Shown in pieces: positions 3,762 through 8,358 of a stretch of DNA of 33,156 bases. The stretch's first letter is position 1. Each line of letters starts with the position of its first letter. This stretch comes from Bacillota bacterium (GTDB lineage Bacteria > Bacillota > Sulfobacillia > JAIMAT01), in NCBI GenBank assembly GCA_023511835.1, contig JAIMAT010000016.1, positions 1 through 33,156 on the forward strand, given 5' to 3'. The position numbers were made by a program, and so were the translations under genes. The notes under the pieces were generated by a model. The model searched no databases, was not told the DNA's origin, and worked only from the letters and a program-made list of their open reading frames with translations.

Positions 3762-5402
3762 CTAGTGCAGCACCTGGCGGAAGACGCCCCACCAGTCCGG
3801 CGTCTCGTAGCCGAACTTCCAGACCGCCGCGCCGGCGAGGTGGAACTGCTGGACCAGGGCCAGCTTGGCCGCCAGGCCGGAGCTGTCGGTGAACCAGACC
3901 TCGTGCCGCACGCCCTGGCTGTCCGTATAGAAGAACTGCGTCTCGCCCAGGTCGGAGTGCGCGACGGGCTGGGCCTGGTAGCGGGCGATCAGGTTGAGCG
4001 CCCCTTCAATATACCAGGCGCGCGTCGGCTCCCCCTGGGCCCAGTCGTAGGCATAGGCCGGAATGCCCAGCAGGATCTTCTGCGCCGGCGCCTGGCTGAC
4101 CGCCCAGGCCAGTCCCTGGGCCATCCAGGGTATGGAGCCGATGGGGCCGGGAGCGCTGGTGGCGTAGTGCTGGTCGTAGGTCATGACGATGAGGTAGTCG
4201 GCCACGCGGCCCAGGGCGACGTAGTCGAAGTCGTGCCCCCAGGTGCTGGCGGCCGCCTGGTCGCGCCAGGGGAGGTCGATGGTCAGGAGCAGCCCCTGCG
4301 CGTGCAGCTGCTGGGCCAGGGCCGTGGCGAACTGGGTGAAGAGGTCCCGGTCGGCGTTCTGCAGGTATTCGAAGTCGAGGTTGACGCCTCCGTAACCGCG
4401 GTCGACCACGGTCATGATGTTCTGCACCAGGCGGGCCCGGACCTGGGCGTCGGCCAGCACCGCGTGGATGGCGGGGCCGCCCATCAGGCTGACGCGGACC
4501 AGGAGCGGCTTCTGGTGGTCGCGCGCCCACTGGAAGAGCGCCGGGCTGTCCGCACCCACTAGGCCCCCCGCCCCGCTGGCGGAGCTGTCGACCGTGTAGC
4601 CGGAGGCGATCACCCAGCTGACGCGGTCGGCCCCCAGGTTGAGCGAGGCCAGGTCCTGCGCGGTGGCCCAGCCGGTCAGGAGGGTGCCCGCCTGGGGCAC
4701 CGGCTTGGGCGCCGGCTGTACGCCGAGAAGCTGGAAGCGGGCGTTCATGAAGCGGACCAGCATGGTGACCGTCTCCGCCCGCGTGGTCGTGGCATACGGG
4801 GCGTAGAGGGCCAGCTGGCCCGGCTGGGAGGGCCGCCCCAGGATGATGCCCTCTTTGACGGCGGCGCTGGCGTCGGCCGCCCAGGTCGGGATGGCCGCCC
4901 GGTCACCGAACTCGTAGAAGTAACGGGGCTCCGCCGTCACCCCCAGCTTCTCCAGCGCGCGTCCGAAGATGACACCCATCTCCGCCCGGTTGAGTGACCG
5001 ATTGGGCTGGAAGCTTCCGTCAGGGTAGCCTTTCAGCACGCCCGCCTGCACCGCCGCGGCCACCAGGCCCTGCTGGTCGGCGGGGATGCTGGTCCAGTCG
5101 GTGAAGGGCGGCCTGGCCGGGGTGACCGGCTGGAGTTCCATCGCCCGGGCCATCCAGACGGCGAAGTCGAGACGGGTGATGGGCTGGTCCGGGCGAAACT
5201 TGCCGTCGTCGGGGACGGTGACGACGCCTGCGGCCTGCGCGGCCAGGATGAAGGGCTCGGCCCAGTGGCCGCTGATGTCGGTGAAGCGGGTGGGGGACTG
5301 GGCGGAGGCGGTGCCCGCCGGGAGCGCGGAGGCCAGCACCGCCACCAGGGCGACGACCGCCAGCAGACGGCCGACGCCTCTTCTGCGATGAGGAGAAGAC
5401 AA
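3762..5402 (-). CDS. Secreted S-layer-homology protein with GH18 glycosidase domain
   Basis: A 546-aa exported wall enzyme. The TTG at 5402 follows GGGGAGG by 8 nt. Residues 1-34 form a signal peptide (basic start, hydrophobic VVALVAVLASALPA, cleavage near ASA). Three SLH domains cover about residues 37-95, 98-155 and 163-222 (for example FTDISGHWAEPFI, GVLKGYPDGSFQPNRSLNRA, TRAETVTMLVRFM). They should hold the protein on a pyruvylated wall polymer, made with the help of CsaB (23954-25069). The GH18 barrel spans about 240-546 and contains GGVNLDFEYL, with Asp343 and Glu345 at the catalytic end of the DxxDxDxE motif (the first Asp is Gly here, as I recall for SleL/YdhD-like members), and VMTYDQHY as a substrate-site motif. 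It probably cleaves peptidoglycan or related GlcNAc polymers. A role in spore-cortex lysis is possible but unproven. Confidence 0.9.
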   Translation of the reverse strand: MSSPHRRRGVGRLLAVVALVAVLASALPAGTASAQSPTRFTDISGHWAEPFILAAQAAGVVTVPDDGKFRPDQPITRLDFAVWMARAMELQPVTPARPPFTDWTSIPADQQGLVAAAVQAGVLKGYPDGSFQPNRSLNRAEMGVIFGRALEKLGVTAEPRYFYEFGDRAAIPTWAADASAAVKEGIILGRPSQPGQLALYAPYATTTRAETVTMLVRFMNARFQLLGVQPAPKPVPQAGTLLTGWATAQDLASLNLGADRVSWVIASGYTVDSSASGAGGLVGADSPALFQWARDHQKPLLVRVSLMGGPAIHAVLADAQVRARLVQNIMTVVDRGYGGVNLDFEYLQNADRDLFTQFATALAQQLHAQGLLLTIDLPWRDQAAASTWGHDFDYVALGRVADYLIVMTYDQHYATSAPGPIGSIPWMAQGLAWAVSQAPAQKILLGIPAYAYDWAQGEPTRAWYIEGALNLIARYQAQPVAHSDLGETQFFYTDSQGVRHEVWFTDSSGLAAKLALVQQFHLAGAAVWKFGYETPDWWGVFRQVLH

Positions 5403-5745: not shown

Positions 5746-6225
5746 ATGGCACGGGTAGGACGCACGCTGGCGGTTCTGGGCGCAGCCGGGGCGTTCGTGG
5801 CGGGCGGCGCCGCCGCACTCCGGCAGGCGCCGGGGGTGGTACAGGCGGCGCCCAGCGTCTCCTCCTCGTCCTCGCTCTCGACCAGCCAGCTGGCCGCGGT
5901 GCAGAGCAAGCTGGCGCAGCAGGTGGCCGCCGAGGAGCGCTCCGTGGCCTCGCTCAACCAGCGCGAACAGCAGCTGGAGCAGGCGCTGGCCGCGGCCCGG
6001 CAGCAGCTCCAGCAGGAGCTGGCCGCCGTGGCGGCCGCCCGCTCGCGCCTCGCCCAGCTCCAGGCCCAGCAGCAGCAATTGCAGCGGCAGTCCACCCAGG
6101 CGCCCAACGTCGACACCTTCACCGGCGCCTCGGCCGGCGGAGGTCAGCGTGAGCACGAGAACGAGGGCGGCATCTGGCTCTTCGGCTCGGGCGGCGGCGA
6201 GGGCTCCGAGGGGTGGGGCGAGTGA
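5746..6225 (+). CDS. Membrane-anchored coiled-coil protein with ApbE-type flavinylation motif (DTFTGAS)
   Basis: A 159-aa protein with no homologue I recognise. The ATG at 5746 follows GGGAGGGGAG by about 10 nt. Residues 7-27 (TLAVLGAAGAFVAGGAAAL) form one signal-anchor segment after a short basic start, so the rest should be outside the membrane. Residues 48-116 are a Gln/Ala/Leu-rich coiled coil (SKLAQQVAAEERSVASLNQR, then LEQALAAARQQLQQELAAV). Residues 123-129 read D-T-F-T-G-A-S, matching the Dxx[S/T]GA[T/S] consensus where ApbE enzymes attach FMN covalently, with Ser129 as predicted acceptor. The last 30 residues are Gly/Glu-rich with a single WLF. The next gene overlaps by 4 nt and carries a similar motif; ApbE follows. 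I infer a minimal flavin carrier on a stalk. Without that motif it would be just a hypothetical coiled-coil protein. Confidence 0.7.
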   Translation: MARVGRTLAVLGAAGAFVAGGAAALRQAPGVVQAAPSVSSSSSLSTSQLAAVQSKLAQQVAAEERSVASLNQREQQLEQALAAARQQLQQELAAVAAARSRLAQLQAQQQQLQRQSTQAPNVDTFTGASAGGGQREHENEGGIWLFGSGGGEGSEGWGE

Positions 6226-6599
6226 GGCGCGCCGCACGCAGGACGCTGGAACAGCGACGCAAACGCATGGCCCGCTGGACTGCGGGCTGGGTGGCCGCCT
6301 CCCTCACCCTCTTCGGGGGCGCCGTCGCCTGGGCCGGCGGGCACACGCCGCGGCCGGCCCACCCCGTGGCCGCGCAGAGCGCGAAGCTCGAGACGGCCAA
6401 GCTTCCGCCGGAGACGCGGAAACTCTTGGAGCAGTCGCGACAGCTGGACGCCCGCATCCGCTCCGTCCAGTCGCAGGTGGACCAGCTGGGCCAGAAGGTG
6501 CAGCAGGTGGCCGGCGAGGCCGCCAGCCTCCCGGCGCCCGCCGCGCCGCCCAGCCTGCCGCCCATGCCCCAGATCCAGACCATGACGGGAGCCAGCTGA
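6222..6599 (+). CDS. Second small anchored coiled-coil protein ending in a TGAS flavinylation-like motif
   Basis: A 125-aa protein starting at GTG 6222, which overlaps the previous stop (GTGA) and has GAGGGG 8 nt upstream; an in-frame GTG at 6213 is the alternative. A very basic N-terminus (RRAARRTLEQRRKRMAR) precedes one membrane segment (residues 19-39, WTAGWVAASLTLFGGAVAWA), giving an N-in, C-out topology. A short coiled coil follows (about 62-98, LLEQSRQLDARIRSVQSQVD), then a Pro/Ala linker, and the chain ends exactly at QTMTGAS. This is the same heptad as in the preceding protein except Gln replaces the leading Asp, so Ser125, the final residue, would be the FMN acceptor. The twin arrangement suggests two interacting or alternative carriers for the downstream ApbE. 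Whether the motif lacking Asp is modified is uncertain. Confidence 0.65.
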   Translation: MRRAARRTLEQRRKRMARWTAGWVAASLTLFGGAVAWAGGHTPRPAHPVAAQSAKLETAKLPPETRKLLEQSRQLDARIRSVQSQVDQLGQKVQQVAGEAASLPAPAAPPSLPPMPQIQTMTGAS

Positions 6600-6613
6600 A
6601 GGAAGGGAGTCGC

Positions 6614-7546
6614 GTGGGCGAGTGGCACGGCCGGGCCATGGCCACCGCGATCCTCATCCGCGACCTCGACGCCCGGCCCGGCGTCGAGGAGGCGGCGAGG
6701 AGGGCCTTCGGCCGCTTCGCCGAGGTGGAGCGGGTCTGCACCCGCTTTCGCGACGACTCGCCCCTCATGCGCTTCAACGCCGAGCCCGGCCGCTGGCGCG
6801 AGGTGGAGCCGCTGCTCTACGAGGTCGTCAACCTGGCCCGTCGCGCCTGGCGGCGGACCGGCGGCCGCTTCGACCCGCGCGTCCTGGAGGCGCTGGTACG
6901 CATCGGCTACGACCGGACCCTGCCGCTGGACGAGGAGCCGCTCCGGCTGCCGGCTCCGCGCGGCAGGCCGCGCGCGGCGCGCCGCGGCGCCTGGCTGGAG
7001 CGGCGGCCCCGGGCGCGGCAGCTCCGCCTGCGCGGGGCCGCGCTCGACCTGGGCGGCATCGGCAAGGGGTATGCCGTCCGCCTCGCCGCGCGCGAGATGG
7101 CGGGCGCCAGCGGCAACTTCCTGGTCAACGCCGGCGGCGACCTCTACTGCCGCGGCGGCGGGCCCCGGGGCGACGGCTGGCACGTGGGCGTGGAGGACCC
7201 GCGCGGCGGCGAGCAGCCGGTGGCGGTCCTGGCGGTGCGCGACCGCGCGGTCTGCACCTCCTCCGTCCGGCGGCGCAGCTGGCTGGCCGGGGGGGAGCGG
7301 GTGCACCACCTGATCGACCCCCGTACCGGCGAGCCGGCCGACTCGGGACTGCTGGCGGTCACCGTCGTCGGCGCCGACCCGGCCTGGTGCGAGGTCTGGT
7401 CCAAGGCGCTCTTCGTGGAGGGCCTGGAGGGCATCGGTGCGCTGGCCGAGCGCGAGCGACTCGCCGCGCTCTGGGTGACGGAGGAGGGGAGGCTGGGCTG
7501 GAGCCCGGCTATGGACCCCTGGCTGATCTGGAGGGTGGTCGCATGA
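6614..7546 (+). CDS. apbE: FAD:protein FMN transferase (ApbE family)
   Basis: Transfers FMN from FAD to a Ser/Thr of target proteins. The 310-aa product has the family order: RFRDDSPLMRFNAE (44-57), TGGRFDPRVLEAL (82-93), DLGGIGKGYAV (145-155), NAGGDLY (172-178), TSSVRRRSW (215-223), HHLIDPRTGEP (231-241) and CEVWSKALFVEG (259-270). In the last motif Glu and Lys stand where many homologues have the metal-binding Asp and Thr; I believe similar variants occur in actinobacterial-type ApbE. The GTG at 6614 has GGAAGGGAG just upstream and keeps the conserved WHGRAMAT start; an ATG at 6638 is less likely. No signal peptide or lipobox is visible, so the enzyme looks cytosolic, unlike many ApbE proteins. 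It lies 14 nt after the second TGAS protein, which makes those two proteins its likely substrates, and overlaps the reductase by ATGA. Confidence 0.9.
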   Translation: MGEWHGRAMATAILIRDLDARPGVEEAARRAFGRFAEVERVCTRFRDDSPLMRFNAEPGRWREVEPLLYEVVNLARRAWRRTGGRFDPRVLEALVRIGYDRTLPLDEEPLRLPAPRGRPRAARRGAWLERRPRARQLRLRGAALDLGGIGKGYAVRLAAREMAGASGNFLVNAGGDLYCRGGGPRGDGWHVGVEDPRGGEQPVAVLAVRDRAVCTSSVRRRSWLAGGERVHHLIDPRTGEPADSGLLAVTVVGADPAWCEVWSKALFVEGLEGIGALAERERLAALWVTEEGRLGWSPAMDPWLIWRVVA

Positions 7547-8358
7547 ACGCGGATCGAACCGGGCGCACGGCGTCCGACTGGGCAGAAGAAGAGCGTCCGG
7601 CGGTCTCGCTGGGGGCGCTCTTCCTGTGGATGACGGCCGGCTGGCTGGTGGGCTACCTGCTGGCGACGCTGGCCTCGCCGCTGCTGGGGAACCGCATGTT
7701 CCCGTGGATCGTGGCCCGGGCGGCCGGGATGACCGCCTATCTGCTGCTGGAGCTGGCGGTGATGGTGGGCGTCTGGCTCTCCCACCCCTGGCGGCTGGGG
7801 AGGCGGCGCCCGTCGCCCGACTTCCTCTACCGGACGCACACCGTCCTCTCGGTGGCCGCCCTGGTGCTGGTGGCCGCCCACGCCACCGCCCTGGCGCTCG
7901 ACCCCTACGTCCAGGTGGGCTGGAAGGGGGCGGTCATCCCGGGAGCCTCCGGCTACCGCGCCGGTCCCGTGGCGGCCGGGGTGCTGGCGGCTTACCTGGC
8001 GCTCGTGGCGGCGCTGAGCGCGGGCCTGGGGCCGCGCATGGCCCGCCGCTGGAGCCCGCAGGTGGCGCGCCGCCTCTGGCTTCCGCTCCACCGCCTCTCG
8101 GCGGTGGCCTGGGCGGCCGCCTGGTTCCACGGCGTGCTGGCGGGCAGCGACACACCGGCCTTCCGGCTCTTCTACGCGGCCAGCGGGGCGGCGCTCCTGC
8201 TGCTGGCCGCCACCCGCTATCTGGCCTCGCCACCCGCCCCGGCCGCGGCGGCCAGCTCCCGCCAGAGCGCCAGCTGGAGCTCCGGCGGCACGGTGCTCCG
8301 CGCCGACGGGTTGGGCAGGCAGGCGACGGGGAGACGGCCCCAGGAGCAGTCCAACTGA
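7543..8358 (+). CDS. Ferric-reductase-like transmembrane protein (four-His, probable bis-heme b)
   Basis: A 271-aa integral membrane protein. The ATG at 7543 overlaps the apbE stop (ATGA). Six hydrophobic helices are visible at about 23-43, 56-80, 98-118, 141-161, 183-203 and 206-225. Paired histidines sit in two helices: His99 and His113 (THTVLSVAALVLVAAH) and His183 and His196 (LHRLSAVAWAAAWFH). This is the pattern for two b hemes stacked across the membrane in the ferric reductase-like/MsrQ superfamily. There is no fused FAD/NAD(P)H domain, so electrons must come from quinol or a separate reductase. As last gene of the operon it is the likely electron donor to the flavinylated small proteins outside. 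The Ala/Ser-rich tail after residue 228 reads into the oppositely oriented glycosylase gene for 142 bp. Confidence 0.8.
   Translation: MNADRTGRTASDWAEEERPAVSLGALFLWMTAGWLVGYLLATLASPLLGNRMFPWIVARAAGMTAYLLLELAVMVGVWLSHPWRLGRRRPSPDFLYRTHTVLSVAALVLVAAHATALALDPYVQVGWKGAVIPGASGYRAGPVAAGVLAAYLALVAALSAGLGPRMARRWSPQVARRLWLPLHRLSAVAWAAAWFHGVLAGSDTPAFRLFYAASGAALLLLAATRYLASPPAPAAAASSRQSASWSSGGTVLRADGLGRQATGRRPQEQSN

Follow-up and report, generated by a model that had tools for sequence, protein, structure and literature searches.

Bare-tailed small proteins as probable ApbE substrates without a flavin-binding domain, encoded next to a predicted bis-heme ferric-reductase-domain protein

Among the closest described systems are the MsrQ-like/ferric-reductase flavinylation clusters (Meheust et al., 2021; PMC8238504): there, as by prediction at the locus analyzed here, the neighbors of ApbE are a heme-carrying conduit in the membrane and a flavin carrier that is exported. 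In those clusters the carrier has an FMN_bind domain, whereas here the carrier is domain-less, the cluster holds no FMN_bind gene and ApbE has no signal peptide. The actinobacterial triad of a ferric-reductase-domain (FRD) protein, FMN_bind and ApbE, represented by locus L228 (C2) of Streptomyces iakyrus, is similar in its FRD protein, its N-terminally anchored carrier and its ApbE without signal peptide, but the carrier is an FMN_bind protein with the motif DTVSGAT and the ApbE belongs to another clade. The Lactococcus FMN_red proteins (Huang et al., 2024; PMC10979944/PMC11334425) resemble our carriers A and B in bearing a motif-like sequence on a C-terminal extension that is unstructured. 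Flavinylation was shown experimentally for FMN_red and is predicted for A and B; the flavin of FMN_red docks in a flavodoxin-like flavin site, a fold absent from A and B. That a bare terminal motif of seven residues is enough for ApbE is the principle behind the flavin-tag (Tong et al., 2021, as presented in PMC12052999); the tag is engineered, and A and B would be its natural version. According to PMC12052999 the seven-residue tag is sufficient for ApbE and works best at a terminus; in published mutants of another ApbE substrate the exchange of Asp for Ala had a minor effect and Ser was accepted, and replacement of Gly by Ala or of Ala by Val left about 50% flavinylation. A description of bare-tail carriers was not found in the mostly open-access literature searched. 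The survey of Meheust et al. (2021) sought ApbE and FMN_bind genes and dropped those without signal peptide or lipidation site, a requirement that the ApbE of this locus would fail and that would explain why the tail carriers were missed.

The locus is located in a 33,156-nucleotide stretch of DNA from a Bacillota bacterium (GCA_023511835.1, positions 1 to 33,156 of contig JAIMAT010000016.1), referred to as the window. Coordinates and motifs were re-read from the sequence, and the overlapping four-gene operon A-B-apbE-Red was found as the preliminary description had claimed:

5746-6225, + strand: carrier A, 159 aa; signal-peptide/anchor-like N-terminus, Gln/Ala-rich coil, DTFTGAS, acidic Gly-rich tail
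6112-6132, + strand: motif DTFTGAS in A (residues 123-129), ApbE-type; predicted FMN site Ser129
6133-6222, + strand: tail of A 3' of the motif, acidic and Gly-rich; variable in length and sequence among homologues, with Gly and Asp-Glu richness retained
6222-6599, + strand: carrier B, 125 aa, GTG start; N-terminus strongly basic, then a single TM helix, a coiled coil and a Pro-rich tail
6576-6596, + strand: motif QTMTGAS in B (residues 119-125, the very C-terminus), ApbE-type; predicted FMN site Ser125
6600-6609, + strand: AGGAAGGGAG, ribosome-binding site of apbE, read from the sequence
6614-7546, + strand: ApbE, FAD:protein FMN transferase without signal peptide, GTG start; PF02424 E 1.3e-55
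7543-8358, + strand: Red, six-helix ferric-reductase-domain protein, ATG start; His99/113/183/196; no NAD(P)H/FAD domain

The reading frames of A and B share 4 nt (GTGA), those of ApbE and Red likewise share 4 nt, and 14 nt separate B from ApbE. The genome of the window, a 2.36-Mb draft that is 96% complete, contained a single ApbE in profile searches and no FMN_bind gene detectable with PF04205; in four genomes (G000, G001, G002 and G009) the same searches gave one ApbE each and zero FMN_bind. Profile searches undercount FMN_bind, since in two genomes (G124 and G125) a divergent FMN_bind-like protein with VVTGAT beside a second ApbE (E 8.8e-4) falls under the PF04205 cut-off; the absence of FMN_bind therefore means that none was detectable. 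Genes for S-layer-homology (SLH) proteins adjoin several TGAS loci, hinting at a connection to the cell surface: the window copy (3762-5402, - strand) combines SLH with GH18, the copies at L075 (2812-5049) and L078 (4838-9307) combine SLH with CAP and SLH with TIG, and L071 looks alike by eye.

We consider it likely that A-B-ApbE-Red is a small extracytosolic electron-transfer module carrying FMN on bare tails, with the covalent FMN inferred. A Red profile search across the class gave matches in 37 of 154 genomes, and the loci were then inspected. The A and B pair was present in 12 genomes, and a further one (G089) had a TGAS-bearing B beside an A-like protein without TGAS, six families being represented altogether. 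Both other genomes of the window genus retain the pair, with DTVTGAS/QTTTGAS and DTTTGAS/QTTTGAS. The genes run A-B-ApbE-Red in the window genus, most other genomes have Red-A-B-ApbE, and in one genome (G101) ApbE is convergent. ApbE was present in 14/14 genomes with carriers; the expectation that TGAS proteins always stand next to it did not hold, as three genomes (G077, G078 and G133) have the corresponding ApbE on a different contig or at a different position, a point against the electron-transfer reading. Response regulator and histidine kinase genes were seen 3' of ApbE-Red at five loci from several families of the class.

A and B gave no match to any Pfam family above cut-off, in line with the earlier view that a bare motif replaces the FMN_bind domain, and the FMN_bind profile did not match them at E ≤ 1. 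Matches to Taxilin, HrpB7, SMC and other coiled-coil families were compositional and below cut-offs, and these assignments were rejected. So was the assignment as divergent FMN_bind proteins, with no profile match and no globular part in the model of B; the AlphaFold2 model of B consists of two long helices and 24 unstructured C-terminal residues. One membrane anchor had been assigned to each carrier. This stands for B, which looks truly bitopic, but for A it was refined to a short, signal-peptide-like N-terminus. Since most A homologues also have AxA-like sites in this region, A is perhaps cleaved and released.

Both proteins are of low complexity, and 6% of the composition shuffles of A yield one [ST]GA[ST], which would favor reading TGAS in both neighbors as a matter of chance or composition beside an ordinary apbE. 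Both A and B had a [ST]GA[ST] in 0.15% of the shuffles, and [DQ]TxTGAS came up in 0.01% for either protein considered singly. Conservation among homologues appears to be the stronger evidence. In the alignment TGAS is identical in 12/12 A-type homologues; in B-type homologues GAS is kept in 13/13 and preceded by T or, once, S (T column at 85%). The check proposed beforehand, conservation of TGAS, thus came out positive: in both carriers only this block is strongly conserved, with GAS invariant in these 12 A-type and 13 B-type proteins from 13 genomes, while mean identity in the other columns is 32% (A-type) and 25% (B-type) and the coils diverge. Invariance in six families, 100% versus 25-32% elsewhere, refutes chance, the probability of which we regard as negligible. 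In A-type proteins a Gly/acidic tail follows the motif; the C-terminus of B-type proteins is TGAS itself or TGASGxP/TGASGG. When 299 genomes of the phylum were scanned at the DNA level for TGAS/TGxS directly followed by a stop codon, hits turned up almost everywhere at the frequency expected by chance and carried no information.

The Asp that opens the canonical motif, by contrast with the core, is not conserved: D, Q, H, V or P occur at its place, so Asp is not required in this carrier family, which agrees with the published substitutions in another ApbE substrate (PMC12052999). The strict form Dxx[ST]GA[ST] is found only in A of the window genus, B having Q for D, which counts against the electron-transfer reading. 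Homologues that keep the coil and lose TGAS, named beforehand as the refuting case, occur at the edges (TRAS in Alicyclobacillus, TGSS in Nanopelagicales, TRGS in G051 and the A protein of G089), and most of them keep a serine in the form [ST]xxS; TGAS proper is conserved only inside one ApbE clade. Such variants in relatives (TRAS, TxVS, TRRS), together with the weak, coiled-coil-only profile similarity of A and B, would also suit a reading in which A and B help to assemble or support Red, or are coiled-coil proteins of a divisome-like kind, with a TGAS or Ser tail that binds, say, ApbE or Red and bears no flavin. The conserved residues are, however, exactly the ApbE acceptor motif, with nothing else strongly conserved, and a search for alternative substrates of the genome's only ApbE, which covered the FMN_bind family, yielded no candidate. 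We therefore judge a purely structural role to be very unlikely.

The membrane protein encoded by the fourth gene is, as first described, a four-His protein of the ferric-reductase type; it is NOX/STEAP-like, and the four His are invariant. Seven residues are invariant in 45 Red relatives (H99, H113, H183, H196, W55, R59 and D120). The AlphaFold2 model of Red has six long helices at a mean pLDDT of 82; among solved structures Foldseek places it closest to the transmembrane domain of NOX5 (TM-score by target length 0.64, probability 1.00, E 0.02), with STEAP1 also among the best. PF01794 was matched by 35/45 relatives (best 5.2e-12), the window Red itself being below threshold. Red has no NAD(P)H/FAD domain; a Streptomyces relative apparently precedes a domain of this type, read by eye as a longer open frame with a 2Fe-2S-like end. 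Red is best read as a bis-heme b ferric-reductase-domain conduit with predicted hemes.

ApbE matched solved ApbE/Ftp structures at E 2e-27, and the motifs HHxIDPxTG, GGD and DxGGIxKG are kept in 33/33 or nearly so. Its metal site, D-x3-T in the canonical form, reads E252-x3-K256 in the window by alignment to 4xdt (numbered from the Met at 6638), which again counts against the electron-transfer reading. ApbEs of minimal carriers often have ExxxK or DxxxK at this place; FMN_bind-linked ApbEs retain DxxxT. An N-terminal signal peptide or lipobox is typical of characterised ApbEs. Both are absent from the window protein, which begins MGEWHGRAMATAIL with no room upstream. At loci where both ends were located, only 6-34 codons lie between the carrier stop and the ApbE motif FxAM (a single value of -151 was a motif mis-hit), and the ApbEs of minimal carriers therefore lack signal peptides.

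For the carriers an N-in/C-out orientation is predicted by the positive-inside rule: among 62 carriers the mean charge of the N-flank was +3.4 and that of the C-flank +0.4, the N-flank being the more positive in 56/62. An ApbE without signal peptide and carriers with the C-terminus outside would be in different compartments unless flavinylation precedes export, a point that weighs against the electron-transfer module. The alternative is that the tails are flavinylated but cytosolic and relay electrons of a soluble reductase to Red for outward transfer. This would agree with the missing signal peptide and short spacing of ApbE, with the lack of a cytosolic flavin domain in Red, and with the fact that FRD proteins such as NOX and STEAP classically take electrons from cytosolic flavin. 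It is opposed by the charge distribution, by A-type N-termini that resemble cleavable signal peptides, and by the FMN_bind-linked ApbEs of Actinomycetota, which have no signal peptide either; we regard cytosolic tails as unlikely. With an extracytosolic module, an ApbE without signal peptide and C-out carriers together imply that flavinylation of the tail would probably take place in the cytosol and precede export, an order that an unfolded tail would suit. SecYEG tolerates bulky adducts.

An ApbE tree was built and its tips labelled by neighbor (FMN_bind, TGAS or Ser-tail). FMN_bind-linked ApbEs of Bacillota, Chloroflexota and Actinomycetota formed one group (97/94), TGAS-type ApbEs with those of Alicyclobacillus and Nanopelagicales formed a separate group (97/97), and the Ser-tail ApbEs were placed between the two (68/90). 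The labels changed 2 times on the tree versus 21 in shuffles, and an earlier tree agrees. As read from these trees, carrier type tracks ApbE lineage and not phylum or taxonomy, which is expected for an enzyme and its substrate.

The arrangement recurs more broadly than first seen, namely in two phyla. At other ApbE-Red loci of Bacillota and Actinomycetota a small one-TM protein is encoded directly 5' of apbE. Its tails in the class include STVS, TTVS, TSVS, TNVS, SRVS, THVS, STLS, TRRS, TRHS, SRRS, RSSGS and similar ones; in Actinomycetota, sampled with 296 genomes drawn across the phylum (77 with Red matches), TRSSGS, TRSRGS, TRSNGS, SSGAS, TKSRAS, TAVS and others were found. Ser is C-terminal in 45/62 distinct tails, 44 of these 45 ending in [ST]xxS-COOH (Ser/Thr at -4), and nearly all remaining tails have [ST]x[GAS]S at most 6 residues from the end; 12/188 control ORFs end in Ser. 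These counts come from automatic gene picks (three of them, L213, L207 and L130, in wrong frames), tails that are 24% Ser/Thr and relatives that are non-independent. Alicyclobacillus (ALC3) has a coiled-coil pair with VQSVTRAS at the TGAS position of both proteins, and DTWTGSS stands in both carriers of a Nanopelagicales MAG; these variants connect TGAS with the looser pattern [ST]xxS. Both kinds of locus occur in Streptomyces iakyrus, FRD-FMN_bind-ApbE (C2) and ApbE-Red with a one-TM protein ending in TRSSGS-COOH just 5' of apbE (C10), so the small tail protein occupies the place of the FMN_bind carrier. There is about an even chance that an ApbE lineage of Bacillota and Actinomycetota flavinylates, in the cytosol before export, the C-terminal or near-C-terminal Ser of disordered one-TM tails ([ST]-x-x-S-COOH, with TGAS as one form) in substrates without a flavin-binding fold.

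At four Streptomyces and Nocardia loci a heavy-metal P-type ATPase (E1-E2 ATPase and HMA at L121) is encoded 5' of ApbE-Red, several of them also with a Met-rich secreted protein, neighbors suggesting copper handling. In an actinomycetotal MAG (L126) ApbE-Red is flanked by small one-TM proteins that come in pairs, in two tandem sets; the pair 5' of apbE has no Ser end, and one protein of the second pair ends in QTRTS.

In the proposed mechanism ApbE would transfer FMN from FAD to the last Ser of TGAS in the tails of A and B, which have no FMN-binding domain, and the unfolded tail would receive it in the cytosol before or during export. On their coiled-coil stalks the tails would act as flexible one-flavin carriers. 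Red would conduct electrons through the membrane to B, the anchored carrier, from which they would pass to A, perhaps released into the wall, and to a final acceptor that might be, for example, a metal or an oxidant.

If this is true, a flavin-binding fold would be unnecessary for protein flavinylation, a bare tail being enough in nature, and the accepted ApbE motif would be relaxed. Many ApbEs would gain candidate substrates, and cytosolic flavin transferases serving extracytosolic carriers would pose a puzzle. The module would then be a widespread, overlooked route of electron transfer in two Gram-positive phyla, Streptomyces and Nocardia included.
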